A stretch of 23,371 nucleotides of DNA from a bacterium (GTDB taxonomy: Bacteria > SM23-81 > DAOVCL01): NCBI GenBank assembly GCA_029932675.1, contig JAOZPP010000045.1, forward strand, positions 1 to 23,371. Reading direction: 5' to 3'. Each line of letters starts with the position of its first letter. Position 1 is the first letter of the stretch. Below, one piece after another: positions 3,444 through 19,541 of the stretch. A program made the translations under genes and the position numbers. The notes under the pieces are model-generated. The model ran no database searches. It was not told the origin of the DNA and worked only from the letters and a program-made list of their open reading frames with translations.

Positions 3444-3530
3444 TTGACAGGATAACAGGATTTACCGAATTTTTATTCATCTCCTCTATTTATTGTAAGA
3501 GGAGGCGGATAGACATAAATGTCTGTCTCT
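3444..3530. repeat. Dispersed-repeat-like intergenic sequence
   Basis: The yebC-ruvC gap contains a degenerate repeat of ACAGGAT units (3446-3462), a perfect 7-bp hairpin at 3481-3504 (arms CTCCTCT and AGAGGAG) and an AGACAT/ATGTCT inverted repeat at 3511-3524. ACAGGAT-rich and GGACAGACAT-type sequences are common as scattered intergenic repeats in some bacterial genomes; that link is from memory. The small open frames here look like translations of such repeats rather than genes. Confidence 0.35.
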
Positions 3531-3656
3531 ACAAGACAAACACATAATACCTTAAATTTAAGAGGGTTATGCCAATTCGTTTCCAATTTGTGAATAATTC
3601 GGGTAAAAAGGGGATTTCCTGTGCTTTCGAGCCAAACGCCTCTTAAACCAATCGTC

Positions 3657-3694: not shown

Positions 3695-4441
3695 CTACTT
3701 TGAGCTTAACTCTTCCATTATAGATACATCTATATCGAAGTTGGAATAGACATTCTGCACATCATCATGGTCCTCTAAGGCCTCCATAAGCTTAAGGGTT
3801 TGCTCTGCCGCCTTACCTTCCAGCTTTACGGTTGTTTGGGGGATCCTGGTAACCTGAGCCGACTGACATGTTATCCCCCCCTCCTCCAACTTCTCCTTAA
3901 CCTCCCCCAACTTCTCTGGGGCAGTAATTATCTCATAACCGCCATCCTCTGGCTTCATATCCTCCGCCCCTGCCTCCAAGGCCAAAGCCAAAAGCTCATC
4001 CTCATTTGCCTCCTCTACGGTGATTACCCCCTTCTGCTCAAACATCCAGGCCACAGAGCCCGTCTCACCTAAGTGACCATTATGTTTGGAAAGTATGTAT
4101 CTTATATCGGATACTGTTCTCTTCTTGTTATCGGTTAAGGACTCTATAAGGAGGGCAACGCCCTGTGGCCCGTACCCTTCATAGATCACTTCCTCATAGA
4201 CGGCCCCAGGAAGCTCCCCTGTCCCTTTCTTTATGGCCCGGTCGATGTTGGCTTGGGGCATATTAGAGGCCTTGGCGTTTTGGATTGCCGTCCTCAACCG
4301 GGGGTTGCCTTCAGGATCTCCCCCTCCCTGACGGGCAGCAACGGTTATCTCCTTGATCAGCTTGGTGAAGATCTTCCCCCTTTTAGCATCCTCTTTCTCC
4401 TTCTTCCTCCTTATTGTGCTCCATTTAGAATGTCCAGACAT
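3695..4441 (-). CDS. yebC: YebC/PmpR-family protein
   Basis: This is the 248-residue YebC/TACO1-type protein. Family members have been described as transcription regulators and, more recently, as translation factors that help ribosomes through difficult stretches. It begins with the hallmark [20 protein letters not shown] and contains [40 protein letters not shown] and a [13 protein letters not shown] segment. The open frame extends 33 codons further upstream, but the family start and a strong AAAGGAGGAGAAG site in front of 4441 identify the true ATG. It is upstream of ruvC, the classical yebC-ruvCAB order. Its leader has three hairpins, annotated separately. Confidence 0.95.
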
Positions 4442-4457
4442 CTCTTCTCCTCCTTTC

Positions 4458-4537
4458 GAACTTAGCCCGCTACGCTCGCAAAGTTCTCCAGAGAGGTCTT
4501 CGCCCCTCTGGCGCTCCCAGTGGGTTTTATCACCCAC
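4458..4537 (-). promoter_or_regulatory. Structured leader of yebC (three hairpins in a row)
   Basis: Between the sugar-dehydrogenase stop and the yebC ribosome site the transcript can fold three consecutive stems. They are GTGGGT/ACCCAC (4520-4525 with 4532-4537), a 9-bp stem with one mismatch (4488-4496 with 4503-4511) and GAACTT/AAGTTC (4458-4463 with 4481-4486). The last lies just before the AAAGGAGG site. I recognise no known riboswitch class. Confidence 0.35.
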
Positions 4538-12834: not shown

Positions 12835-13137
12835 TCATACCCCCTTTCCTTCGCCTTCTAAGACCATCTCAATTGCCTTCTCCTTAGGGGGACACTCCTC
12901 TGCGCATATGCCACAGCCCTTACAGTGCTCTAAATCTATCCCCTTCATCTTCCCTTCCTCCACTATTATTGCCGAATCAGGGCAATAGATCCAGCAAAAG
13001 AGGCAATGGATGCACTTTCCCTCATCCCAGACTGGCCGGTAGGTCCTCCAGGAGCCGGTTTTGTATTGCTCGGCGTTTCCCGCATCGAGGATGAGTCCAC
13101 CGATGGGGATTTCCCTCCATCCTTTCAGTCCACTCAT
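12835..13137 (-). CDS. porD: Pyruvate:ferredoxin oxidoreductase, delta (ferredoxin) subunit
   Basis: A 100-residue 2[4Fe-4S] ferredoxin subunit that relays electrons from the alpha-beta core to free ferredoxin. The two cluster motifs are CX2CX2CX3C at residues 42, 45, 48, 52 (CIHCLFCWIYCPD) and 72, 75, 78, 82 (CKGCGICAEECPP). The N-terminal extension (SWRTYRPVWDEGKC) is standard for PorD. The ATG overlaps the porC stop by 4 bases. Confidence 0.95.
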   Translation of the reverse strand: MSGLKGWREIPIGGLILDAGNAEQYKTGSWRTYRPVWDEGKCIHCLFCWIYCPDSAIIVEEGKMKGIDLEHCKGCGICAEECPPKEKAIEMVLEGEGKGV

Positions 13138-13697
13138 TCTTCCTTCACCTCCTCATAAGCCCTCTTTATGGCCCGGATATTTCCCTCCGTAACCCTTTCA
13201 TCGAACTTCTTGCCAAATTTCCTCCTGATATCCTCATAGATGGTCTCTGGCTTGAGAAGCCCAGTTGTTCGAATAAAGGCCCCGATCATCGGCGTGTTGG
13301 GAATAGCCCTCCCAATCTCCTGGATGGAGATACCAGTGGCATCAACTGTATAGATCTTCCGACCAGTGATATGCAACTTCTCCCGGACCCAGCCTGGGTC
13401 CTGGGTGGTATTGACCAATAGGATCCCATCCTCCTTTAGACCCTCACCCACATCTACCGCATCCAGAAGGGTGGGATCAAGCACAATAACCACCTGAGGG
13501 CTAGCCACATCACAGTGGACCTTAATCGGTTGGTCATCAATCCGGGTGAACCCCTTCATTGGTGCTCCCATCCTCTCCGGACCATACTCAGGGAAACCTT
13601 GGCTATACTTACCCTCTTTTATCGCTGCCTCAGCCAAGAAGAGGGCTCCCGTCTTAGCCCCCTGCCCTCCCCGACCGTGCCATCTGATCTCGATCAT
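13134..13697 (-). CDS. porC: Pyruvate:ferredoxin oxidoreductase, gamma subunit
   Basis: The gamma subunit (187 residues) stabilises the complex and contributes to CoA binding. It starts MIEIRWHGRGGQGAKTGALF, the GRGGQG signature, and contains QGFPEYGPERMGAPMKGF. I use the ATG at 13697 because it follows AGGAGGGGATGAG; a longer open frame to 13736 would run into the promoter. It is the first gene of a porC-D-A-B operon, the order known from Thermotoga and many anaerobes. Its first ~57 bases and promoter have a second copy at about 16.9 kb. Confidence 0.94.
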   Translation of the reverse strand: MIEIRWHGRGGQGAKTGALFLAEAAIKEGKYSQGFPEYGPERMGAPMKGFTRIDDQPIKVHCDVASPQVVIVLDPTLLDAVDVGEGLKEDGILLVNTTQDPGWVREKLHITGRKIYTVDATGISIQEIGRAIPNTPMIGAFIRTTGLLKPETIYEDIRRKFGKKFDERVTEGNIRAIKRAYEEVKEE

Positions 13698-13720
13698 CTC
13701 ATCCCCTCCTTTTTGTGAAA

Positions 13721-13749
13721 AATATAACAAAGTCAAATCTGAAAAGCAA
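13721..13749 (-). promoter_or_regulatory. Promoter of the porCDAB operon
   Basis: TTGCTT (13744-13749) and TATATT (13721-13726) are separated by 17 bases on the minus strand, 24 bases ahead of the porC ATG. This fits a housekeeping sigma-70 promoter between recR and porC. Confidence 0.6.
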
Positions 13750-13765
13750 GTCCATCCCCAAGCCC

Positions 13766-14362
13766 TTAAAGTTCTGTTCTTCCCTCTATAGCCTTACTCA
13801 AGGTGATTTTGTCCGCATACTCCAGTTCCCCGCCAATGGGGATGCCCCGGGCTATACGGGTGACTTTTATCCTCAAGGGTTTTATCACCTTGGAGAGATA
13901 AAGGGCTGTGGCCTCACCTTCGGTCGTTGGGTTAGTAGCGAGGATTACCTCTTTGATCCCTTTCTTTAGCCTCGTTCCCAGTTCCTTAACCCTTAATTCC
14001 TCAGGTCCTACCCCATCTAAGGGAGAGATCACCCCACCCAAGACATGATAGAGTCCATTATAGCCTTGGGCCCCTTCGATGGTCAAGACATCCTTCGGTT
14101 CCTCCACTACACAGATAGTTGAACGATCCCTTTGCGGATCGGTGCAGATCGGGCAAGGGTCTTCCTCGGTCAGGTTAAAGCAGATCGAACAGAATCTGAC
14201 CTTCTCCTTTACCCCCCTGATGACCCCGGCCAGGGAGTGAACCTCTTCCGCGGGTAGGCTGAGAATATAAAAGGCCATCCTTTGAGCCGTCTTCCTCCCA
14301 ATCCCGGGAAATTTAGAGAGTTTTCCTACCAATTCCTCTACGCTCTGTAAGGTCGTCGCCAT
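13766..14362 (-). CDS. recR: Recombination mediator RecR
   Basis: RecR works with RecF and RecO to load RecA at gaps. The 198 residues show the N-terminal helix-hairpin-helix (LSKFPGIGRKTAQRMAFY), a zinc finger with Cys58, 61, 70 and 73, and the Toprim domain starting STICVVEEPKDVLTIEGAQG and LYHVLGGVISPLDGVGPEEL. I prefer the ATG at 14362, which follows GAGGG at a normal distance; a TTG five codons earlier would use that site as coding sequence. recR stands alone upstream of the por promoter. Most of it is duplicated as a broken copy at about 17.0-17.5 kb. Confidence 0.95.
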   Translation of the reverse strand: MATTLQSVEELVGKLSKFPGIGRKTAQRMAFYILSLPAEEVHSLAGVIRGVKEKVRFCSICFNLTEEDPCPICTDPQRDRSTICVVEEPKDVLTIEGAQGYNGLYHVLGGVISPLDGVGPEELRVKELGTRLKKGIKEVILATNPTTEGEATALYLSKVIKPLRIKVTRIARGIPIGGELEYADKITLSKAIEGRTEL

Positions 14363-14559
14363 TGATCTATCCCTCAAGCTATGAAGCTACAAGTTTAGAA
14401 ATCTATCTGGACAAATGTTAATACCCATTAGGTAAATCAGGGCTATGGTGTACCCTATCTGGCAAATTTTAAGTGGATAGGTTGTTCAAGGACCATTTCC
14501 CCCAAATAAATGGGGTGAGGAGAAAAAGTCAAGATGTAAATGGAAAAAAGAAATCATTT

Positions 14560-14577
14560 AAGTGAAAATTTTCACTT
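14560..14577. promoter_or_regulatory. 18-bp perfect palindrome, likely ArsR-family operator
   Basis: AAGTGAAAATTTTCACTT is perfectly symmetric. It lies 18 bases before the -35 box of the plus-strand regulator gene, in the otherwise gene-free 14363-14635 gap. ArsR-type repressors bind such AT-rich palindromes near their own promoters, so this is the best operator candidate, although it sits slightly upstream of the usual overlap with the promoter. Confidence 0.55.
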
Positions 14578-14595
14578 TCTAAGGGATAATTTTCC

Positions 14596-14623
14596 TTGAC
14601 AGCTCCTAATCCTTGAGTAAATT
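14596..14623 (+). promoter_or_regulatory. Promoter of the ArsR-permease cassette
   Basis: A perfect TTGACA at 14596-14601 is followed after 16 bases by TAAATT (14618-14623), with AATTAT at 14620-14625 as the alternative -10. It drives the plus-strand cassette. Confidence 0.6.
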
Positions 14624-14635
14624 ATATGCAAAAAT

Positions 14636-14998
14636 TTGAATATCTGCATTAAAGGAGGCAGGATTAAAGAGGTAATAAAGGTCTTCAAGGCCTTAAGCGA
14701 TGAGACGAGAGTGCGGATGCTCAAAATCCTCCTGGAGAAGGAAAGCCTCTGCGTCTGTGAGATCATGCAGGCCCTGAACATTTCCCAGACCAGAGCTTCC
14801 AGGAATCTTGGTATACTTAAGGAAGCAGGCTTCCTCAGGGCTGAACGAAAGGGAACTTGGGTCCACTATTCGGTTGACAAAACCAACGAATACTGTAAAC
14901 CCATAGAGGGACTACTCACCCGCTGGCTTAATGCAGATCCCCAGATATTGAAGGATAGAGAGAGGTTGAGTAAAGCAGTAAAATCGGGCAAGGGGTAG
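14636..14998 (+). CDS. ArsR-family metal-sensing repressor
   Basis: This is a winged-helix repressor of the ArsR/SmtB family. The start region KVFKALSDETRVRMLKILLE is typical, a CVC pair (Cys39, Cys41 of the longest form) lies at the beginning of the recognition unit where ArsR proteins bind As(III) or related metals, and the recognition helix reads SQTRASRNLGILKEAGFL. It is the first gene of a plus-strand cassette with a permease and a thioredoxin-like protein, so it probably represses that cassette through the nearby palindrome. The start is unclear: TTG at 14636 has no ribosome site, while AAAGGAGG at 14651-14658 is followed in frame by ATT at 14663. A 111-residue protein from ATT would fit the family start better. 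Confidence 0.85.
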   Translation: MNICIKGGRIKEVIKVFKALSDETRVRMLKILLEKESLCVCEIMQALNISQTRASRNLGILKEAGFLRAERKGTWVHYSVDKTNEYCKPIEGLLTRWLNADPQILKDRERLSKAVKSGKG

Positions 14999-15013
14999 GA
15001 GAGGGGCATAGGA

Positions 15014-16035
15014 ATGAGACTGTTGGCAGGTGGTGTGAGTGCATTGTGGGATTACCTATCCGCCCATGTGCTCTCCTGTTTGGTACCCGCTTTCTTCATC
15101 GCTGGCGCAATTAGCGTATTTGTCTCCCAAGCAGCGGTGCTCAAATATTTCGGGGCTCAGACGAGAAAATGGCTGTCCTACAGCGTGGCATCCGTCTCCG
15201 GAACAATACTTGCTGTATGCTCCTGCACGGTTCTCCCTCTTTTTGGAGGAATTTACAAAAGGGGGGCAGGTATTGGCCCTGCGGTTGCCTTCCTCTATGC
15301 AGGTCCGGCAATAAATATTTTAGCCATCGTCTATTCAGCCAGACTATTGGGATATGATTTAGGGGTGGCCAGGATTATTGGAGCGGTGACCTTTTCTGTG
15401 GTAATCGGGCTGGCTATGGCAACGATCTATAGGCAAGAGGAACAGGGGAAGATTGCCCAAGATTTGGCATTGCCGGGTGTGGATGGCCCGGGAAGAAGGT
15501 GAAAAACCCTCTTCCACCTCGTTTTGCTGGTGGCCATTCTGATCTTTGGCGCATTGCAACACTGGGTTATTACCGGCATCCTTATAGTAGTGCCGGTGGT
15601 TATCTTGCTTCACTGGTTCCCCAGGGAGGAGGTCATGGCCTGGCTAAGGGCTACTGGGGGTTTGCCAGGCAGATTTTCCCCTTGCTCCTCATTGGGGTGT
15701 TCAGCGCCGGGATATTGAAGGTGCTCATCCCTGAATCGATAATCTCCAATTGGGTGGGAGGAAATTGCCTCCGCGCAAATTTTTTAGCCACTATTTTCGG
15801 GGCGTTTATGTATTTTGCCACCCTCACTGAGGTCCCCATCGTGAAGGCATTTATGGAGCTTGGTACGGGGAAGGGACCAGCCCTAGCCTTACTTCTTGCT
15901 GGTCCAGCACTCAGTCTACCCAATATGCTCGTCATTCGGACCATAATGGGAAATGGAAAGACTTTAACTGACATTCTGCTGGTGATAATAATGGCCACAT
16001 TTACAGGGTTTCTCTTTGGCTTACTGACCTCGTGA
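15014..16035 (+). pseudogene. DUF318/ArsP-type permease, broken
   Basis: This was a ~340-residue membrane permease of the ArsP/SO_0444 type, thought to export arsenic compounds or Cu/Zn. The first half has the metal-binding CSC in ILAVCSCTVLPLFGGIYKRG followed by GPAVAFLYAGPAINILAI; the second half repeats the fold with FARQIFPLLLIGVFSAGIL, LTEVPIVKAFMELG and ALALLLAGPALSLPNMLVI. Two lesions break it: an in-frame TGA at 15500-15502, after which the same frame continues as transmembrane sequence, and a one-base deletion near 15645 that moves the rest to another frame. The alternative frame crossing the break is not hydrophobic, so it is not a second subunit. Start ATG at 15014 with GGAGAGGGG upstream. 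Confidence 0.8.
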
Positions 16036-16087
16036 GAACAGAAAGAACAGCACCCCTAATTCACTTGATTCAAGGGAGGAGGTTCCT

Positions 16088-16319
16088 ATGAAGATCGAGA
16101 TATTGGGTAAAGGATGCCCTAAGTGCCAAAAGGCCGCCGCCAATACAGAGCAGGCGGTCAGGGAATTGGGTGTGGAGGCCGAGATTTAGGAAGGTAGAGA
16201 AGATAGATGAGATTATGAGATACGGGGTGATACTCACCCCTGCCTTGGCTATCGATGGTGAGGTTAAATGTGTTGGGAGGATCCCTTCGGTGGAGGAGAT
16301 AAAAGGCTGGATCAGATGA
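16088..16319 (+). pseudogene. Thioredoxin-like redox-active disulfide protein, frameshifted
   Basis: Family members are ~77-residue thioredoxin-fold proteins that accompany ArsP-type permeases. The start MKIEILGKGCPKCQKAAANT holds the CPKC redox pair (10, 13). After GVEAEI one extra T (near 16187-16190) creates TAG; dropping it restores RKVEKIDEIMRYGVILTPAL and AIDGEVKCVGRIPSVEEIKG to a clean TGA at 16317. The ATG follows AAGGGAGGAGG. It is the third lesion in this cassette. Confidence 0.8.
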
Positions 16320-16541
16320 TTGAGGCCTGGAGGAGTGAGGGGTACTGACCCATAAACACAGCCCAGACCATCAGCTCTATTCCTAGCGAGCATGCTCCCC
16401 TGAGGCTTGCTTGTATTCCTTGCTCTTATACGGCACATCAAGTGCTAAATCTCCTTTTCAGAGGAGGTGAGAGATATGCGTTTTTCCAACCGCTCTATAT
16501 GACCACCAGGACAGTGCTGCAGTTCAGCAGTGCCAGGGGTA

Positions 16542-16754
16542 ATGAGAATAGGGCTCAAAGGAGGTGTTGAGGTAGGTATCTATGGGTTGGAGAAAATATT
16601 TCAGGAGGTTCAAGCCATGGGGGTGGGAGACGATATTCTCCTTAAAGGAGAGCTTCTCAAGAGGGTAAAGCTAAACACCTGGATTCCAAAGAGCCGGGAA
16701 GAAGAGTTTGGCGAAGCTATACTTAAAGCATTTAAGGAATTCTTGGCGGGATAA
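16542..16754 (+). CDS. Small acidic protein of the permease-thioredoxin cassette
   Basis: About 70 residues from the ATG at 16542, starting MRIGLKGGVEVGIYGLEKIF and ending with IPKSREEEFGEAILKAFKEF. I do not have a function for it. Its sequence recalls small uncharacterised proteins found beside thioredoxin-like genes. A GTG at 16530 is in frame, and the frame continues upstream through one TGA (16500-16502) to an ATG at 16476 with an excellent AGAGGAGGTGAGAG site. The stretch in between contains a CC pair. So the gene may once have been longer and be damaged, or translation may start weakly at 16542 (AGGGG only three bases away). Confidence 0.5.
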   Translation: MRIGLKGGVEVGIYGLEKIFQEVQAMGVGDDILLKGELLKRVKLNTWIPKSREEEFGEAILKAFKEFLAG

Positions 16755-16821
16755 GATCCCTAATGCTATGGATAAAACATCGGGTATCCAAGCCAATAAA
16801 CTTGGACTTTGTTGAAAGAAG

Positions 16822-16849
16822 AACTTGAAATCAAGTTTGTAAGCTTTTT
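16822..16849 (+). terminator. Candidate terminator of the ArsR cassette
   Basis: AACTTG (16822-16827) and CAAGTT (16832-16837) form a 6-bp stem with a 4-base loop, and a T5 run follows at 16845-16849. Weak stem, but in the right place after the last cassette gene. Confidence 0.4.
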
Positions 16850-16890
16850 ATAATTATTGACATAGAATCAAGATACATCAAGCCTTAGGA

Positions 16891-17540
16891 GAGGGCCCAG
16901 TCTTAGCCCCCTGCCCTCCCCGACCGTGCCATCTGATCTCGATCATCTCATCCCCTCCTCTTTGTGAAAAATCTAACCAAGTGGGTCCAAAAAATCAAGT
17001 AATTCCTGAAATTTTTCTGACTTAGCTGAGAATAGACCACCCTATAGCTCGGTCCACCCCTCTATGGCCTTGTTACCTTGTCCGCATACTCCAGCTCCCC
17101 CTGATGGGGATCCCCTTGGCTATACGGGTAACCCTTATCCCCAAGGGCTTCACCAACTTGGAGAGGTAAAGTGCGGTGGCCTCCCCCTCAGTTCCTTAAC
17201 CCTCAGCTCGTTGGACCCAACCACATCCAAGGAGGATATCCCCCCAATACATGGTAGACCCCATTGTAACCCTGAGCCCCTTCGATGGTCAAGACATCCT
17301 TCGGTTACTCCACCACACAGATAGTTGAACGATCCCTTTGCGGATCGGTGCAGATCGGGCAAGGGTCTTCCTCGGTCAGGTTAAAGCAGATCGAACAGAA
17401 TCTGACCTTCTCCTTTACCCCCCTGATGACCCCGGCCAGGGAGTGAACCTCTTCCGCGGGTAGGCTGAGAATATAAAAGGCCATCCTTTGAGCCGTCTTC
17501 CTCCCGATCCCGGGAAATTTAGAGAGTTTTTATTCCTCTA
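16891..17540 (-). pseudogene. Broken second copy of porC 5' end, promoter and recR
   Basis: This segment is a direct-orientation copy of 13641-14340. Part one (16891-~16975) nearly equals the porC start, its ribosome site and the first promoter bases. The middle (~16980-17276) matches recR only at roughly 80% by eye, with a deletion of around 60 bases and other indels. Part three (17277-17530) matches recR 14071-14324 with about three differences in 254 bases, constant offset 3206. The copy lacks the recR start (first ~8 codons) and its frame is destroyed, so RecR is made only from the intact gene. The TATATT -10 box is altered in the copy. Confidence 0.9.
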
Positions 17541-17865
17541 ATAATTTACGCGTAAGCTAAAAGCTACCAATAGCTGCTGTCTCACTTTTGGTGATGTGGA
17601 TATCCCTAACGTCCAAGATGACGGCAGATTGGGGAGGACCGTCGAAAATCTGTGAATAGCCCGGATATGGGATCCCCCCGTTGGCCCCCTCCAAATAAAC
17701 TGAAAGGGGAGGTAAAAGCCAGGCCAATAAATTTGACACAGGGGTATTAAAGCCGTGCACAACCGCACCTCACCCCCTCCCCTCTGCTCAGCCCCCCCAA
17801 CCTTGTCGTATCATAACTTGCAGGATCTGCAATTATCTCCTCAAGCCCGTAGGGGCGAGAACTCC
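17541..17865. other. No convincing gene; possible remnant ORF
   Basis: Between the recR copy and the ABC permease gene there is no gene I can support. A minus-strand frame of 67 codons (17557-17760) contains a hydrophobic LLAWLLPPLSVYL followed by AVILDVRDIHITKSE and might be a piece of a membrane protein, but it has no clear ribosome site and no family I recognise. The part next to 17760-17830 is very C-rich. Confidence 0.4.
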
Positions 17866-17871
17866 TTACGG
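17847..17871 (-). terminator. Hairpin over the end of the ABC exporter unit
   Basis: A stem of up to nine pairs (including two G-U) spans 17847-17871 and covers the stop codon of the ABC permease gene. No U-run follows, so this is a weak or non-canonical terminator. Confidence 0.3.
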
Positions 17872-18603
17872 ATTTCTCCTCCTTCTCTCCAAAGCCCGTT
17901 GGGAGGCCCAGAGCAAGAGGGCACATCCGGCCAGCATGGCCCCAACTGCTGGGAGAGGAGGGATGAGGTCCACCGAGCCCAGGAGGGCGTAGCGGAGCAG
18001 CTCAACCTCATAGGTGAGGGGGAACCAAAAGGCCACCACCTTCAGACCTAAGGGAAGGGCGGTGAGGGGGAGGAAGACACCCGAGAGGAAGATCATCGGC
18101 AGCCTCACCGCATTGGCAAGGGTCATTGCGTCGAACTCCTGCCTGACGATCAATGAGAGAAAGCAGCCGAAGCCGGAGAAGAGAAAACTGGAGAGCAAAA
18201 CGGCAAGCACCAGAAGAGCTGGGTTCACCAGGGTTGGCCTGAAGAAGAGGAACACAAGGGGAACCATCACCGAGGAAACCAAGAGGCCAAAGACGACCCC
18301 ACCCAGGATCTTGCCCAAGGCCACCCCCCACATCGTTACCGGAGCGAGGATGACCCTCTCGAAGGAGCCGATCCTCCGCTCGAACATAATAGATGCCGTG
18401 GACATCGAGGTCGTCCCGAAGATCAGGGACATAGCTATGAGGCCAGGAGCCAACTCGTGCGCCCCCTGGGGGTTACGCAGCAGGAAGGCCAAGGCAAAGA
18501 CGAAGGGGAAGAGGATCCCCCAGCTTATGGTGGGGGGCTTAAAGTAGTAGGCCCGCAGGTCCTTCAGGGCGATGAACCAGGCCTTGGTCAGCTCATCCCT
18601 CAT
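17866..18603 (-). CDS. ABC-2 type transporter permease
   Basis: A 245-residue membrane subunit of an ABC-2 exporter. The N-terminus (LTKAWFIALKDLRAYYFKPP) is cytoplasmic and about six hydrophobic segments follow, from ISWGILFPFVFALAFLL to VGAMLAGCALLLWAS. The segment MSTASIMFERRIGSFERVIL and the loop MIFLSGVFLPLTALPLGLKV are hallmarks of the DrrB/NodJ-like group. The substrate cannot be told from sequence. Its start overlaps the ATPase stop by 4 bases, so the two subunits are produced together. Confidence 0.88.
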   Translation of the reverse strand: MRDELTKAWFIALKDLRAYYFKPPTISWGILFPFVFALAFLLRNPQGAHELAPGLIAMSLIFGTTSMSTASIMFERRIGSFERVILAPVTMWGVALGKILGGVVFGLLVSSVMVPLVFLFFRPTLVNPALLVLAVLLSSFLFSGFGCFLSLIVRQEFDAMTLANAVRLPMIFLSGVFLPLTALPLGLKVVAFWFPLTYEVELLRYALLGSVDLIPPLPAVGAMLAGCALLLWASQRALERRRRNP

Positions 18604-19541
18604 CTCATCTTCTCCGCCTCAATTCCGGTAAGTTGGACAAAGGCCTCCTCCGAACTAGGCTCCTCGGTGTGAAGGGAGCCGATGAGAAGCCCTTTACCCT
18701 CAGCAAACCTGGTTATCTCCGTTAAAGCAAGGGGAAGGTCTCTGACGCTGAGGTGATAGTGGTCCCCCTGGGCGCGAACCCTATCAACCGAGGGAAGGGC
18801 TAAAAGTTCCGGTGCGAGCCCCTCGTTACGGTGGAAGCTTATCCTGATGCTGGGCTCTGCCGAAGCCTTGCTCCGGATGCCCTTAACAGTATCCAGGACC
18901 AAGATCTTGCCCCTGTTGATGATGGCGATCCTATCACAGAGCTTCCCTGCCTCGGCTATCTGGTGGGTGGTAAGGAAGATGGTTACCCCCTCATGGTTCA
19001 ACTCTTCTATCAAACGATGCATCATCCGTTTCGCCCTCACATCAAGCCCCAGGGTGGGCTCATCCAGGAAGAGCAGAGGGGGATTGTGGATGAGGGCGCA
19101 GGCAATCGTTAGCTTCCGCTTCATCCCCCGGGAGAGGGTGAGGAACTTCCTCTCCTTCTTCTCTAAAAGGCCAAACCTCTCCAGGAGCTCCAATGCCCTC
19201 GCCTCCCAATCCCGGCGGGGTACCCCATAGATCTGGGCAGAGAAGATGAGGTTATAGTAGCAGGTGAGGTCAGGGTAGAGGTTGGAGACATCCTGCACTA
19301 CGCCGATGTGGGCCTTTACCTCTTTGGTCTGGGTCTCCAGATCAAATCCCAGCAGGGAGGCTTTTCCCTCAGTAGGGGTGATCAACCCGGAGAGCATGCG
19401 CACAGTGGTCGTCTTCCCTGCGCCATTGGGCCCCAGGAAACCGAATATCTCCCCTTCCTTCACGGAGAAATGGATATGGTCCACGGCAACCAGATCACCG
19501 TAGCTGCGGGTGAGGCCATGGACTTCGATTGCCTGGTTCAT
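18600..19541 (-). CDS. ABC exporter ATP-binding protein (DrrA/CcmA-like)
   Basis: The ATPase of the exporter, 313 residues. Walker A GPNGAGKTT (37-45), a Q-loop region at VVQDVSNLYPDLTCY, the signature LSRGMKRKL (136-144; Arg replaces the usual Gly), Walker B LLFLDEPTLGLD (D160, E161) and His193 in TTHQ are all present. After ~215 residues there is a C-terminal domain of the DrrA type (IRISFHRNEGLAPELLALPS). Such pairs export drugs, lipids or polysaccharide; no neighbour narrows it down. Confidence 0.9.
   Translation of the reverse strand: MNQAIEVHGLTRSYGDLVAVDHIHFSVKEGEIFGFLGPNGAGKTTTVRMLSGLITPTEGKASLLGFDLETQTKEVKAHIGVVQDVSNLYPDLTCYYNLIFSAQIYGVPRRDWEARALELLERFGLLEKKERKFLTLSRGMKRKLTIACALIHNPPLLFLDEPTLGLDVRAKRMMHRLIEELNHEGVTIFLTTHQIAEAGKLCDRIAIINRGKILVLDTVKGIRSKASAEPSIRISFHRNEGLAPELLALPSVDRVRAQGDHYHLSVRDLPLALTEITRFAEGKGLLIGSLHTEEPSSEEAFVQLTGIEAEKMR

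Follow-up and report, generated by a model that had tools for sequence, protein, structure and literature searches.

Genes and repeats at the recR locus

The window analyzed here is a whole contig of 23,371 bp (C22) from a 3.03-Mb draft genome in 116 contigs. It carries an intact recR gene and, just downstream of it and likewise on the minus strand, the porC gene (Table 1). The segment at 13637-14338 (copy A), which includes the 5' end of porC, is repeated in the direct orientation 3.2 kb away, at about 16886-17539 (copy B). In self-BLAST and alignment, the match pairs 13637-14324 (extending to 14338) with 16886-17530 (extending to 17539), and the repeat is present in the genome as these two copies only. 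Copy B contains stops and frameshifts and has lost the start of recR, making it a pseudogene.

The ArsR cassette between the two copies is decaying, too: the permease gene carries a stop and a frameshift, and the thioredoxin-like gene, presumably of the TM0996/MTH895 type, carries a frameshift. The homologous operon in L101 is intact, with a permease of 414 aa followed by a thioredoxin-like protein of 80 aa.

Table 1. Coordinates of the genes, repeat tracts, and pseudogenes around recR
Feature	Position	Strand	Remarks
porC, 2-oxoacid:ferredoxin oxidoreductase gamma	13134..13736	-	Pfam POR; 5' end inside the repeat; recR-porC order same in L019
Functional recR (copy A)	13766..14377	-	203 aa; HhH, Cys4 zinc finger, and Toprim intact; Pfam RecR_HhH, RecR_ZnF, Toprim_4, RecR_C
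ArsR-family regulator, intact	14636..14998	+	Pfam HTH_5
ArsP-type permease pseudogene	15014..16035	+	In-frame TGA at 15500, frameshift near 15655; two ArsP_1 halves
Thioredoxin-like pseudogene	16089..16319	+	Frameshift near 16190 (frame reading)
Copy B: recR pseudogene and porC 5' end	16886..17539	-	Stops, frameshifts, 58-bp net deletion
Copy B left near-identical tract	16896..16977	-	Matches 13647/13651-13728; 60 bp exact; 2 differences in 78
Copy B diverged, decayed middle	16978..17275	-	Matches 13729-14069; 70 differences in 272 aligned sites, 5 indels
Copy B right near-identical tract	17276..17530	-	Matches 14070-14324; 191 bp exact; 3 differences in 254
Degenerate interspersed repeat	17557..17660	+	Adjoins copy B on the right; further copies on C14, C95, C43, C102, and C9

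Upstream of recR, a short segment at 14496-14546 is conserved at 79% in the same-genus species described below and has a G/C-flanked hairpin beside TTGACTTTT; it is possibly the recR promoter region. Elsewhere in the window, the intergenic interspersed repeats at 3499-3612 and 4440-4517 have dozens of copies in both the source genome and that of the same-genus species. Another repeat, at the contig end (23123-23371), has 82 to 92% copies on C101, C108, C14 (at the contig end), and C42 and is probably the reason why the contig stops. A C-terminal fragment of a tyrosine recombinase (Phage_integrase) is found at 529-909, in an ORF that overlaps queH and runs in the same direction. At the two copies, no match to a tRNA or RNA family was found, and the plasmid database PLSDB contained no match to 13600-17900.

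Mosaic identity of the two copies

Base-by-base alignment revealed that identity between copies A and B is patchy rather than uniform. In the left tract (13651-13728), which corresponds to the porC 5' end, 76 of the 78 positions are identical, and in the right tract (14071-14324), comprising the 5' half of recR, 251 of 254 are. The middle (13729-14070) is only about 74 to 78% identical, and its five indels include the net 58-bp deletion. Its difference rate stands apart from those of the right tract (Fisher, 8e-19) and the left tract (Fisher, 8e-7). In a block scan, shuffled differences formed as strong a block in 0 of 300 trials, and the optimal boundaries of the diverged block were 13723-14070. 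The first-pass annotation had described near-identical ends around a diverged middle in the same orientation, with 17277-17530 differing at about three of its 254 bases and a deletion of around 60 bases in the middle; all of this is borne out by the alignment, in which the three differences are exact and the deletion is slightly shorter. The right tract thus represents a contiguous stretch with A-B identity far above that of the flanking paralogous sequence (3/254 versus 70/272 differences), as is characteristic of gene conversion.

Comparison with a species of the same genus

A single same-genus genome (G001, contig also L019, Candidatus Zixiibacteriota CSMAG_1030; referred to here as O) was available for comparison. 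It has the same arrangement of recR and por genes, with 82% identity across 3.7 kb, and contains one recR, whose product is 84% identical to that of copy A at the amino acid level, and no ArsR cassette. In the middle, the identities are 0.78 for A-B, 0.82 for A-O, and 0.80 for B-O; in the right tract, the respective values are 0.988, 0.787, and 0.787. Accordingly, the right-tract sequences of A and B resemble each other more than either resembles the orthologue, which is another mark of gene conversion, whereas in the middle they do not. In phylogenetic trees of the right tract, B groups with A, and trees of the middle do not separate A, B, and O (53%). Synonymous distances (dS) for the middle are 1.38 for A-B and 1.35 for A-O, compared to an A-B value of 0.04 for the right tract. 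The left tract is weaker in this respect, with 2/78 differences for A-B versus 10/78 for A-O (p=0.03).

The comparison of the diverged middle with recR of relatives, which had been suggested on first reading, thus places the B middle as far from A as O is. Together with the dS values, these distances indicate that the B middle split from A at about the time of the species split or earlier and that the ends are of recent common source.

Decay of copy B and order of events

Branch arithmetic for the middle yielded 13 changes private to B at 147 first and second codon positions and 2 on the A branch. The right tract has 1 A-B difference at 169 such positions (p=4e-4 versus the B middle). All five indels are found in the middle, with none inside the two tracts. 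The B-branch changes in the middle are biased toward third positions, yet much less so than those on the A branch. Third positions still change most, so constraint has been only partly relaxed; B functioned under selection during part of the time since the split and decayed afterwards. The ends lack the decay seen in the middle; they are therefore younger than the pseudogene and were renewed after the middle had decayed.

This order of events counts against a simple recent duplication. It also bears on a variant that we consider unlikely, a recent duplication of the whole of 13637-14338 followed by replacement of the middle of A or B through homologous recombination with DNA from a related species. 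Such a scenario would produce the near-identical ends in one step and accommodate a B middle that is not sister to A, as well as a GC3 of 0.46 in the A middle versus 0.635 in the right part of A, although GC3 values as low as this are not unusual, occurring in 20% of genome windows. However, it predicts a B middle as undecayed as the ends, unless the donor was already a pseudogene, and the contrast between 13/147 changes with five indels and 1/169 with none does not agree with that prediction.

Probable gene conversion from copy A to copy B

These data are probably best explained by an old, long-broken copy B, most likely xenologous, whose ends have recently been converted from the functional recR. 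On this view, the recR/porC-5' region would have long existed in two copies, of which B is most likely a xenologue contributed by a related species; alternatively, B could be a paralogue that arose around the time of the split within the genus. Ectopic gene conversion between the direct repeats, which lie 3.2 kb apart, would then have recently overwritten both ends of copy B with copy A sequence and left the indel-riddled middle untouched. We infer the conversion process and the xenologous origin from the patterns described above and the A-to-B direction from the fact that A is functional. If the copies crossed over, recR would lose its first ∼17 codons and its promoter, and B-to-A conversion would introduce stops into recR. 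Since copy B lacks the start and promoter side of recR and either event would break the gene, only A-to-B conversions would be expected to survive selection.

This explanation requires two separate tracts, the left one being short and set apart from ordinary conservation only weakly (p=0.03 versus A-O), and with one same-genus genome, its direction and the origin of B fall short of proof. Of the two readings offered by the first-pass annotation, re-homogenization of an old duplication by gene conversion fits best, as the B middle is decayed and diverged at the species level and the ends are near identical and undecayed. That recR functions in recombination seems incidental.

Origin of copy B and alternative explanations

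The GC3 of the B middle is 0.75, versus 0.585 ± 0.055 in the neighboring native genes, in which 0 of 309 windows were as high. Over 360 kb of the genome, 2.9% of windows reach this value, so the high GC3, suggestive relative to the local genes, was rejected as proof of a foreign B middle. A related, somewhat GC-richer donor for B is plausible from sequence composition.

The other initial reading held that the recR region of a related strain entered together with the ArsR cassette and recombined by homology, so that one copy is of donor and the other of native origin. A related lineage is indeed a plausible source of the B middle, given the predominance of third-position changes, the GC3 of 0.75, and the lack of a sister relationship between B and A. 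Joint arrival with the cassette found no support: the cassette has a native-like GC3 of 0.51 to 0.59, belongs to an operon type that is found elsewhere in the phylum, and is itself decayed. Such Campbell-like integration, which we judge quite unlikely, could account for the direct repeat on both sides of the cassette and for copy A being complete at the left while B is truncated in porC, as a single crossover yields. However, alone it predicts even divergence between donor and native copies, so that the near-identical ends would need later conversion, and the cassette was not joined to recR in any other searched genome of the phylum. The right flank of B does resemble the upstream region of recR in copy A, but this similarity is weak (2/500 shuffles) and confounded by the interspersed repeat, and homology of the two regions was not accepted.

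Next to copy B, a pair of ABC transporter genes (17866-19541) has GC3 values of 0.71 to 0.79, among the highest in the genome, and no close relative in O, the best match being 39 to 40% at the amino acid level for the ATPase. This pair was likely acquired. The following gene pair (Nitro_FeMo-Co and ArsR) is native to the genus and is found elsewhere in O without the ABC genes.

An assembly artefact, with copy B derived from a co-occurring strain or from a misjoin at the 191-bp exact repeat, is very unlikely. The assembly is a draft in 116 contigs, and the exact repeat is expected to exceed typical assembly k-mers, but differences outside the 191 bp fix both copies, a swap of partners at the repeat would ruin recR and leave a circle, and the decayed B middle and cassette are unique sequences joined to B without a repeat. 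We give next to no credence to the remnant being a repair reservoir for recR, in which recurrent, favored or regulatory, conversion or template switching between the copies would keep the ends similar. A DGR template/variable pair was rejected because all four bases change, without the required adenine bias and with indels, and the sole RT gene found is on C109. A mobile integrative element with a gene-restoring repeat was likewise rejected, as there is no integrase beside the copies and the tyrosine recombinase fragment is 13 kb off.

Comparison with known systems

Conversion of the ends of copy B from the functional recR would require no new mechanism, as ordinary gene conversion is a known phenomenon. 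It is well documented between bacterial duplicates, such as the rRNA operons of E. coli (PMC8022953), and long-lasting concerted paralogues have been described in prokaryotes (PMC6053082). A literature search found no case of such gene conversion involving recR. The locus offers a clean case, with readable relative ages, of apparent ectopic conversion acting on the pseudogene of a repair gene in an uncultured bacterium. It also serves as a warning that a duplication cannot be dated by the pairwise identity of the repeat, and such repeats are a hazard for short-read assembly.

In contrast to the ectopic conversion and concerted evolution described previously (PMC8022953, PMC6053082), the recipient here would be a pseudogene of a single-copy repair gene located beside decayed genes, and only its ends appear to have been refreshed. 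Similarly to decaying xenologous or duplicated fragments that remain after homologous integration, the locus has accessory DNA enclosed by directly repeated housekeeping-gene sequence; unlike such fragments beside a native gene, however, it displays patchy divergence that later conversion is likely to have produced.
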